Shown piece by piece: positions 28,519 to 31,249 of a DNA stretch of 64,000 bases. The stretch comes from an uncultured Alphaproteobacteria bacterium. GTDB lineage: Bacteria > Pseudomonadota > Alphaproteobacteria > HIMB59 > GCA-002718135. The stretch's first letter is position 1. Every line of letters begins with the position of its first letter. The notes below the pieces were generated by a model. That model saw nothing but the letters and a program-made list of their open reading frames with translations, was not told the origin of the DNA and searched no databases. The position numbers and the translations under genes were made by a program. The stretch lies in assembly GCA_902518895.1 (NCBI GenBank), contig CABYHL010000003.1, positions 1 through 64,000 on the forward strand. The letters run 5' to 3'.

Positions 28519-29552
28519 TGTTTAATGTTATTGATCAATACAATAGTTTTGTTGAAAATAATTTTATTAAAAAAAATAAAGATCAAATTGAATTTTTAAA
28601 ACAAGCAGATAATGTATGGTCATCTTTTAGTAAAACAAAGTTATTTTTTAAGGATAAAATTTTCGAAGGAATTTATCTTTATGGTCAAGTTGGGACAGGA
28701 AAAACATTTTTATTAAATTTATTTTATCAAAATACCAAGATTGGAAAAAAAATTCATTTTAATAACTTAATGAATGAAATCCATGAACAAGTTAAAAAAT
28801 CAGAAAATAAAGAACTTGCAATCGAAAACTATGTAAAAAATTTAAGTAGAGATTTCAAAATAATATTTATTGATGAACTACATATTTTTAATATTGTTGA
28901 TGCACTAATAATAAAAAAAATATTTAATTATTTTTCTAAATATAAAATATTTGTATTACTGTCGTCAAATTTTCATCCAGATAATTTATATAAAGATGGT
29001 TTGCAGAGAAATGACTTTCTGCCATTTATTGATTTAGTTAAAAAAAATTTTTTTCTTTATGATATTAGTATTAAAACTGATTTTCGTCGACAAACTTTAA
29101 ATCAATCAAAGACATATTTCACACCTATAACAACTGACACAACAAATGAATTTGAAAAATTATTTAATCGCTTTGTTGATCCCTCCCATTTAACAACTGT
29201 AAAAATTAAATCTAAAAGTCGTGAACTAGAGTTTGATAAATGTACATCAAATCTAATGATGATAGATTTTGAAAATCTTTGTGAAGTAAATTTTGGTAAT
29301 GAAGATTATAAAAATATTGCAGATAAATTTAAGTTGGTATTTTTAAAAAATGTTCCTGAATTTGATAATCATAAAAAAGATGCGTGCAGAAGATTTATTG
29401 GATTAATTGATATGTTATATGAAAATAATTGCTCAACAGTAATTTTAGCATCAAAACCTATAAATTCATTAAATAATATAAATACTCTAGCAGAAGAATT
29501 TAAAAGAACCGCTAGCAGATTATATGAAATGACCATAGTAAAACCAGATTGA
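28518..29552 (+). CDS. zapE: Cell division protein ZapE (AFG1-like ATPase)
   Basis: GIYLYGQVGTGKTFLLNLFY; IIFIDELHIFNIVDALI. Confidence 0.92.
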   Translation: MFNVIDQYNSFVENNFIKKNKDQIEFLKQADNVWSSFSKTKLFFKDKIFEGIYLYGQVGTGKTFLLNLFYQNTKIGKKIHFNNLMNEIHEQVKKSENKELAIENYVKNLSRDFKIIFIDELHIFNIVDALIIKKIFNYFSKYKIFVLLSSNFHPDNLYKDGLQRNDFLPFIDLVKKNFFLYDISIKTDFRRQTLNQSKTYFTPITTDTTNEFEKLFNRFVDPSHLTTVKIKSKSRELEFDKCTSNLMMIDFENLCEVNFGNEDYKNIADKFKLVFLKNVPEFDNHKKDACRRFIGLIDMLYENNCSTVILASKPINSLNNINTLAEEFKRTASRLYEMTIVKPD

Positions 29553-30538
29553 TGAAATACATAATAAGATTTTTAGTCAGTACAGTAGTTTTATTAGTAG
29601 TAGTTTATTTTACTGCAGGTTTTTATGTTGCTTATCAAATTTTAAAAATAGATCCAACTTGTGGATTACACGAAGGATCCCTTCCTAATACATGGAGTAC
29701 AACAGTTGATTCACATGAATACTCAATTCTTGCACGACAAAAAGTAAGAGAAAATTTTAACTTTAAAGATTATTATTTAGATGAATGGCAAGATGTATAC
29801 TTTCAATCTCGTGATTCTGACATTAAGATTAATGGATGGCTGTTTAATTATTTTCCAAATAGACCAATTATAATTGTAACACATGGTATAAGCCCAAATG
29901 GTAAATGTAAGTCTGAAGCCAATCTTATTGCAAGTTTTTTAGTTAATAAAAAATTTAATGTTCTGACGATAGATTTAAGAAACTACGGCCAAAGTGATAC
30001 TGTAAGTAGTTATGATGATTTAGGCTTAAAGTCATATAATGATATTCTTGGTGCATTTGATTTTTTAAAAAAAATTGGTTTCAAGTCTAATAGCATTGGA
30101 TTACATGGAATATCTCTTGGTGCAAGCACCTCTATTTTTGCAGCACATTCAGAACCGGAAATACGTGCAGTGTGGGCAGATAGTTCACTTGCTGAATTTA
30201 ATATGATCTTAAAAGATGAAATAGCAAGATATGGTCTTACTATAGAATTTGGGCCAGTAGTAAGTTTAGCTGGAAGAATCTTAACTGGAACTGATCCAAG
30301 AGAATTATCTCCAGCTAAAAAATTATCAAATACACAATACTATTTTTTTACTCATGGTGATTCTGATACAAGAATCTTAACACGACACTTTAATTATTTT
30401 AAAGATTATACAAATCAAAATAAAATTAATGCTGATTTTTGGTTAGTTGAAAACTCTTATCATGTAGATGCTATGTTTAAATATCCAGAAGTATATTCTA
30501 AAAAGATGGAAGATTTTTTTAATAAAAATTTAAAGTAG
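29552..30538 (+). CDS. Alpha/beta hydrolase (membrane-anchored)
   Basis: N-terminal TM; PIIIVTHGISPNGKCKSEANLIA; GLHGISLGASTSIFAAHS nucleophile elbow. ORF track begins at a TTG at 29549; ATG is at 29552. Confidence 0.85.
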   Translation: MKYIIRFLVSTVVLLVVVYFTAGFYVAYQILKIDPTCGLHEGSLPNTWSTTVDSHEYSILARQKVRENFNFKDYYLDEWQDVYFQSRDSDIKINGWLFNYFPNRPIIIVTHGISPNGKCKSEANLIASFLVNKKFNVLTIDLRNYGQSDTVSSYDDLGLKSYNDILGAFDFLKKIGFKSNSIGLHGISLGASTSIFAAHSEPEIRAVWADSSLAEFNMILKDEIARYGLTIEFGPVVSLAGRILTGTDPRELSPAKKLSNTQYYFFTHGDSDTRILTRHFNYFKDYTNQNKINADFWLVENSYHVDAMFKYPEVYSKKMEDFFNKNLK

Positions 30539-30674
30539 GCCGGACTCTAAAACTAGTTTGTACCTTGGCAGACACCTCTCTAGAATAAGAAACTCAAATA
30601 ATTATCAAACGGCGGGTAAGATAATTAAAAATTCTTGGCGTTCCTCCGAAGCTAAGAAACGAGTATTATCCGGC
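30539..30674 (+). ncRNA. Candidate structured RNA (unclassified) between hydrolase gene and sdhC; strand uncertain
   Basis: Closing stem GCCGGA(30539-30544)/TCCGGC(30669-30674) plus CTC/GAG; hairpin TAATTATC(30599-30606)/GATAATTA(30620-30627), loop AAACGGCGGGTAA; hairpin TTCTTGGC(30632-30639)/GCTAAGAA(30651-30658), loop GTTCCTCCGAA. GC-rich loops in an AT-rich genome. Confidence 0.6.
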
Positions 30675-30868
30675 TTATTAAGAGTAATATCTATCTATTT
30701 AAAATTCAAGATTTTTAGTTAAATCTGGTATAAAATTTGGTCGATTTTCATAAAATTTGCTACTTTTTATCAACATTTTACAAACTTCCATGATAGTAAG
30801 AAAAGATAACTAAACCATTAATATTTTGAAATTTGAAGAAAAATACTTACTTATGAAACATAAGAAAA

Positions 30869-31249
30869 ATGAAAAAAATGACTGATAATAGACCATTATC
30901 ACCTCACCTATCTATTCACAAAAGAGTACTTACAGCAGTATTTTCAATTTTTCATAGGATATCTGGAATAGGATTAAGTGTGGGCGCAATATTAATTTCA
31001 ATTTGGTTTTTATTAATTAGTTTTGGTCCTGAATTTTATATTTATTTTGAAATTCTTTCTAAAAGTATTTTGTTTAAACTTGTTCTAATGATTTGGACTG
31101 TCGGTATTTTTTACCATTTATTTAATGGATGTAGAAAATTATATTGGTCATTCGGTATTGGAATGGAATTATCTCAAGTATATAAATCTGGTTATGCTGT
31201 TATATGTTTAACTCTAATTTCTAGTTTAGTTGTCTGGTATTTTGCATGA
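30869..31249 (+). CDS. sdhC: Succinate dehydrogenase cytochrome b556 subunit
   Basis: RPLSPHLSIHKRVLTAVFSIFHRISGIGLSVG; HLFNGCRKLYWSFG. Confidence 0.93.
   Translation: MKKMTDNRPLSPHLSIHKRVLTAVFSIFHRISGIGLSVGAILISIWFLLISFGPEFYIYFEILSKSILFKLVLMIWTVGIFYHLFNGCRKLYWSFGIGMELSQVYKSGYAVICLTLISSLVVWYFA

Follow-up and report, generated by a model that had tools for sequence, protein, structure and literature searches.

A conserved, structured small RNA gene on the minus strand beside sdhC in one family of ocean Alphaproteobacteria, probably acting in trans

The gap between an alpha/beta hydrolase gene and sdhC in an uncultured alphaproteobacterium appears to hold a noncoding RNA gene that is read from the minus strand, that would have a promoter of its own, and whose product would act in trans, probably together with a protein. 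Judged from sequence comparison, this statement as a whole has a probability of roughly 0.7. Its first part taken alone, a minus-strand small RNA gene, is very probable; the protein-bound role in trans, likewise taken alone, is only somewhat better than an even bet. In the window (the whole stretch of DNA analysed, 64,000 nt) the gene and its neighbours lie as follows:

30674..30539, minus strand: structured small RNA of about 136 nt, with its 5' end near 30674-30677 and its 3' end near 30539
29549..30538, plus strand: alpha/beta hydrolase gene, the convergent neighbour (Pfam Abhydrolase_1 and Peptidase_S9)
30869..31249, plus strand: sdhC, the divergent neighbour (Pfam Sdh_cyt, E 1e-24)

The small RNA points away from sdhC and lies tail-to-tail with the hydrolase gene; a possible short U-rich tail would extend it to about 30524 (minus strand). 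An earlier sequence-only reading had remarked on the length of the gap, and the hydrolase stop (30538) is indeed separated from sdhC (30869) by 330 nt, of which the RNA takes up the first 136; about 195 nt lie between it and sdhC, and the sequence from 30680 to 30869 is mostly unconserved. The inverted repeats noted in that reading are all in place on the plus strand: GCCGGA (30539-30544) with TCCGGC (30669-30674), TAATTATC (30599-30606) with GATAATTA (30620-30627), TTCTTGGC (30632-30639) with GCTAAGAA (30651-30658), and CTAG (30553-30556) with CTAG (30580-30583). No open reading frame is shared by the homologues, which are 134-144 nt long and were compared in all three frames.

The elements of the fold, all on the minus strand, are these:

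30668..30674, minus strand: 5' strand of P1, GCCGGAU, pairing with 30539-30545 (7 pairs, standard in 28/28 sequences)
30539..30545, minus strand: 3' strand of P1, GUCCGGC, with covariation
30661..30664, minus strand: 5' strand of P1b, ACUC, pairing with GAGU (three pairs standard in 28/28, one in 27/28)
30592..30595, minus strand: 3' strand of P1b, GAGU, standard pairing in 28 sequences
30632..30658, minus strand: hairpin P4, core GCUUCGGAGGAACGCC, GGAG tetraloop
30599..30627, minus strand: hairpin P3, loop 30607-30619 with invariant CCGCCG
30553..30583, minus strand: hairpin P2, CUAG-AGAG-GUGUCU-GCCA-AGGUAC-AAA-CUAG

P1, the closing helix, would meet P1b and P2 at a three-way junction, and P1b would carry the hairpins P4 and P3, with loops able to touch. 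The earlier proposal of a structured RNA is borne out: core-helix pairing is standard in 27-28 of 28 sequences from six genera, compensatory changes in helices are present across genera, the consensus fold has a z of -7.4, and none of 500 shuffles reaches the covariation observed on the minus-strand structure. Sliding the partners by 1-3 columns lowers pairing from 95% to below 46%.

The helices differ greatly in how they vary. P1 shows the exchanges C-G/U-A, G-C/A-U, A-U/G-C and U-G/U-A/C-G. This closing stem had been proposed from the inverted repeats and is real; the inner extension then assigned to it (CTC at 30545-30547) is not, the true one being ACTC 30592-30595 with GAGT 30661-30664, that is, P1b. 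In some genera P1b is lengthened to about 8 pairs (AUAAACUC/GAGUUUAU in L286; L286 and L288 were folded), and one relative (L291; G061:C2, minus strand upstream of 2120) has an insertion of ~20-25 nt between P1 and P1b. (P1b figures from an initial plus-strand count were set aside, a register shift having inflated them.) The two 8-bp hairpins of the sequence-only reading, P3 and P4, both hold. P4 is nearly invariant in the 28 sequences and six genera, its outer pairs varying through U-G only, bar one U-U cell, and the stem of P3 is varied, with swaps U-A/C-G/A-U. In L292 an end pair is lost (C to G) alongside an A-U gained at the other end, a single event. Both loops are invariant. The P3 loop (CCGCC) can pair with P4 GGAGG over one mismatch, and the loop-loop contact proposed in that reading stays plausible.

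The segment that had been described as weaker CTAG/CTAG pairing does pair, but it is anything but weak: on the minus strand it forms the firm hairpin P2, almost invariant on both arms, with 10 pairs standard in 28/28 and single changes only to U-G or G-U. (P2 in relatives reads CUAG-AGAA-GUGUCU-GCCA-AGGUAC-AAA-CUAG; AGAG replaces AGAA in the window.) Variation within P2 and the loops is near zero across the 28 sequences.

From which strand is this RNA read? The plus strand, proposed at first, is the wrong one: single changes in the helices produce G-U pairs on the minus strand and A-C mismatches on the plus strand. Restricted to pairs that at least 60% of the 28 sequences support, the minus-strand reading contains 121 G-U cells vs 5 A-C cells (56 of the 121 come from two invariant P2 pairs; without these the count is 65 vs 5), and in the plus-strand alignment the imperfect helix cells are C-A 32 times vs G-U 13 times. 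We read the RNA from the minus strand because G-U so far exceeds A-C there. Mapped on a host-gene tree built from the proteins encoded next to the RNA, the single substitutions in P1b, P2 and P4 yield G-U and not once A-C, a few U-U cells excepted. Folding energies speak for the same strand: 1) the consensus fold reaches -25.4 kcal/mol on the minus vs -15.4 kcal/mol on the plus strand; 2) its z against column shuffles, for 17 homologues, is -7.4 on the minus and -4.0 on the plus strand; 3) 24 of the 28 sequences fold better on the minus strand. For the single sequence the z against shuffles is -2.9 on the plus and -2.4 on the minus strand. A pairing from the plus-strand minimum-energy fold, GUUUGU/GCAGAC, was considered and rejected, being broken by changes in relatives. 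The locus is a clean example of G-U vs A-C counts correcting the strand of a predicted RNA.

Sequences resembling a promoter and a terminator flank the RNA, the promoter-like block lying on its minus-strand side:

30704..30709, minus strand: promoter-like -35 box, TTGAAT; TTGAA lies upstream of P1 in relatives too
30684..30689, minus strand: promoter-like -10 region, TATTAC, a TATAAT-like hexamer
30524..30538, minus strand: T-rich stretch after P1, overlapping the hydrolase 3' end

TTGAA is found 35-37 nt upstream of P1 in 28/28 loci (once as TTGTA; the g5 loci L287, L289 and L290 were counted by their first TTGAA). The -10 hexamer appears in relatives as TGTAAT, TATAGT, AGTAAT or ATTAAT, and the spacer after the TTGAA box is about 15 nt, below the usual 17. 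The T-rich tract is present in most copies; it is terminator-like in relatives (GTCCGACTTTTTTATTTT) and weaker in the window. An automatic scan of 30300-31000 returned no terminator-like site, the reason being that P1 encloses the entire RNA and not a short loop. A promoter and a 3' end belonging to the small RNA itself are thus supported but not proven by the sequence patterns. Farther right a second conserved block, also with a TTGAA box, belongs to sdhC, and the 195-nt spacer is therefore best read as two back-to-back promoters. Two options had been offered at the outset, a leader of the sdhC operon and an independent sRNA. The second has stood up, with a promoter-like block of its own on the minus strand, and the first has not: the RNA heads away from sdhC, and its 3' end lies in the tail of the hydrolase gene. 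By this sequence evidence it is very probably an independently transcribed small RNA and not an sdhC leader.

How widely is it distributed? With blastn the small RNA is found in 23 genomes of the same genus, the window's own included, always flanked by the same two genes. A covariance model search extends this to six genera, all in one family: 80 of the order's 162 genomes hold the RNA, among them all 10 genomes of that family at 90% completeness or more. The same search did not find it in the sister family of the order (G037-G060) and gave nothing beyond weak matches in 386 other genomes of the class. Scanning genome and viral contigs for the pattern yielded true copies in AG-319-E03, AG-404-B13, AG-897-D18 and AH-287-M11, all single-cell alphaproteobacterial records and the only true copies among the alphaproteobacterial and few other loci that were checked with the model; the sole exact match to the P2 core in viral contigs lies within an open reading frame and scores 13 bits, and no true copy was seen there. 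Comparison thus shows the small RNA, as a sequence family, to be restricted to one family of genomes. (Some stray matches deserve mention. The class-wide matches L305, L306 and L307 and the f2 matches L301 and L302 were rejected as chance, lying in or across coding open reading frames with partial fit to the model. In an unrelated small alphaproteobacterial genome, a stretch outside long open reading frames, L308 (G457:C84, 1503-1589, minus strand), resembles P2 alone (AGAAGTGTTTGCCCAAGTACTTACTAG), probably by chance. One fragmented genome has a second, partial copy at a contig edge (G036:C77:1-60, model positions 63-122), probably duplicated in assembly.)

What might such an RNA do? The inner hairpins are near-invariant across genera in which the neighbouring proteins are only about 40-60% identical, a sign that a precise shape is under strong selection. 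The sequence is invariant on both arms of P2 and of P4 and in the P3 loop; P1, P1b and the P3 stem vary freely. This pattern of conservation resembles a core held fixed for tertiary contacts or protein binding, mounted on a replaceable frame. The small RNA would accordingly act in trans, as a regulatory or housekeeping RNA of rigid shape that binds protein, a role suggested by the invariance of the paired regions themselves and by the failure to detect Hfq, the partner of a classic antisense sRNA. (A profile search for Hfq, PF17209, found nothing in 10 genomes of the order and was positive in 5 control genomes; the absence is a miss by profile search rather than proof.) That the RNA keeps its place beside sdhC across relatives could point to a local function instead of one in trans.

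The main rival is also a trans-acting RNA: a base-pairing sRNA whose exposed loops (GGAG, CCCGCC) would block or mimic the ribosome-binding sites of many mRNAs. Its loops are invariant and GGAGG does resemble a Shine-Dalgarno sequence, but conservation spans both strands of the helices and not just a seed, each loop is able to pair with the other, and Hfq went undetected in the 10 genomes of the order; we hold base pairing to be unlikely, if still to be reckoned with. More ambitious, and a slim prospect only, is the notion of a lineage-specific global regulator that, in this family of streamlined marine bacteria, has taken the place of 6S RNA (or of a comparable RNA-protein regulator acting on RNA polymerase or the ribosome). 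With no 6S RNA and no Hfq detected, the small RNA may be among the lineage's few trans-acting regulatory RNAs. An order without detectable 6S RNA or Hfq, yet with tmRNA and SRP RNA, would in any event possess an unusual toolkit for RNA regulation.

A cis-acting leader of the sdhC-operon mRNA, riboswitch-like or protein-bound and read from the plus strand, has in its favor that the element always lies upstream of sdhC and that the plus strand, too, folds better than shuffles. As a plus-strand RNA, however, it would turn the changes in its helices into A-C mismatches and would lose P2, a hairpin with two invariant G-U pairs that the minus strand alone can form; it would also have to accommodate a promoter-like block that stands between it and sdhC and is directed away from sdhC, and ~195 nt of mostly unconserved sequence before the gene. 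No expression platform was found between the element and the sdhC start (there is no terminator-like site, and 30680-30869 is mostly unconserved). This makes the leader quite improbable.

Could it be a 6S RNA so far diverged that its Rfam model fails to see it? Searches for 6S RNA (RF00013) succeed in 136 of 190 genomes of the class and in none of 61 genomes of the order, nor in nine genomes of the family or order by a more sensitive search up to E 10 (the search was positive in its Caulobacter control), and the two RNAs are alike in their small size, in independent transcription (from a promoter-like block in the present case) and in having a long-range closing helix. The predicted folds part company: the 6S RNAs of the class are long rods with a central bubble, whereas the small RNA is branched, with two junctions. 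Up to E 10 the window yields no RF00013 match, the small RNA covariance model matches none of eight 6S loci, and the sister family has neither 6S RNA nor the small RNA. Divergence from 6S is very unlikely.

The same holds for an antisense or convergent-termination device serving the hydrolase mRNA, locally and only at the hydrolase 3' end. The 3' end of the RNA abuts or overlaps the hydrolase stop codon, as such a device would have it, but the conserved sequence is intergenic rather than in the overlap, and in one relative (L293; G062:C45, about 2093-2461) the RNA is intact although the hydrolase is mostly gone (residues about 98-288). Least credible of all is an element of the DNA itself, such as a cruciform or a site bound by protein: the inverted repeats, and the conserved DnaA-box-like pairs in the same gap of relatives, would suit it, but the G-U vs A-C strand asymmetry has no reason at the DNA level, and the promoter-like block and T-rich tail flank exactly this segment.

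The DnaA-box-like sites are an observation in their own right. In relatives from all genera examined (L286-L295 and L023) the spacer that separates the RNA from sdhC has two such 9-mers exactly 12 bp apart (e.g., TTATCCACAGATTTATACACA), flanked by the two putative divergent promoters. Of these the lineage of the window retains only TTATCAACA, at 30767 (30766-30775), and has lost the second box. DnaA possibly controls the sdh operon or the small RNA, to judge from these sites. On account of its DnaA-box pairs the gap was also considered as the chromosomal origin and rejected: in a near-complete relative (G111:C1), over the 400 kb examined, cumulative GC skew is lowest at about 305196, in a gap between a reverse-strand ccm-like block and a forward aconitase-like gene. 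That gap is a candidate replication origin, but it is about 36 kb from the small RNA, and the window's lineage is without the second box.

The preferred reading, a minus-strand RNA gene whose product acts in trans, concerns an RNA that matches nothing catalogued, as the sequence-only reading had supposed. No Rfam family reaches its gathering score; at E up to 10 there are two chance matches only, far below the gathering scores, and the most diverged relatives of the small RNA have no Rfam match either. The papers searched yielded no description of it, nor of 6S RNA or Hfq in this clade. The family appears to be new; its kind, the small structured noncoding RNA, is already known. It would be an uncatalogued family in a probably abundant, compact-genome ocean lineage in which RNA regulation is hardly known. 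The alphaproteobacterial tmRNA (RF01849) and SRP RNA (RF00169) are structured housekeeping RNAs to be expected in such genomes; both map elsewhere in them, and the small RNA is therefore neither. The sucA-II and sucC motifs (Weinberg et al. 2010, PMC2864571; RF01758, RF01759) are candidate structured RNAs named for TCA-cycle genes, but they are cis leaders of other genes, in Gammaproteobacteria, and the small RNA is without a match to them and is directed away from sdhC. The nearest in spirit is the SAR11_0636 candidate RNA of 'Ca. Pelagibacter ubique', described as three stems, one of them well conserved, that meet at a junction, and as probably a noncoding RNA with separate transcription (Meyer et al. 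2009, PMC2704228; the fourth motif of their Figure 3). Compared by description only, the two differ in gene context and have in common that each is a junction RNA of streamlined marine Alphaproteobacteria.
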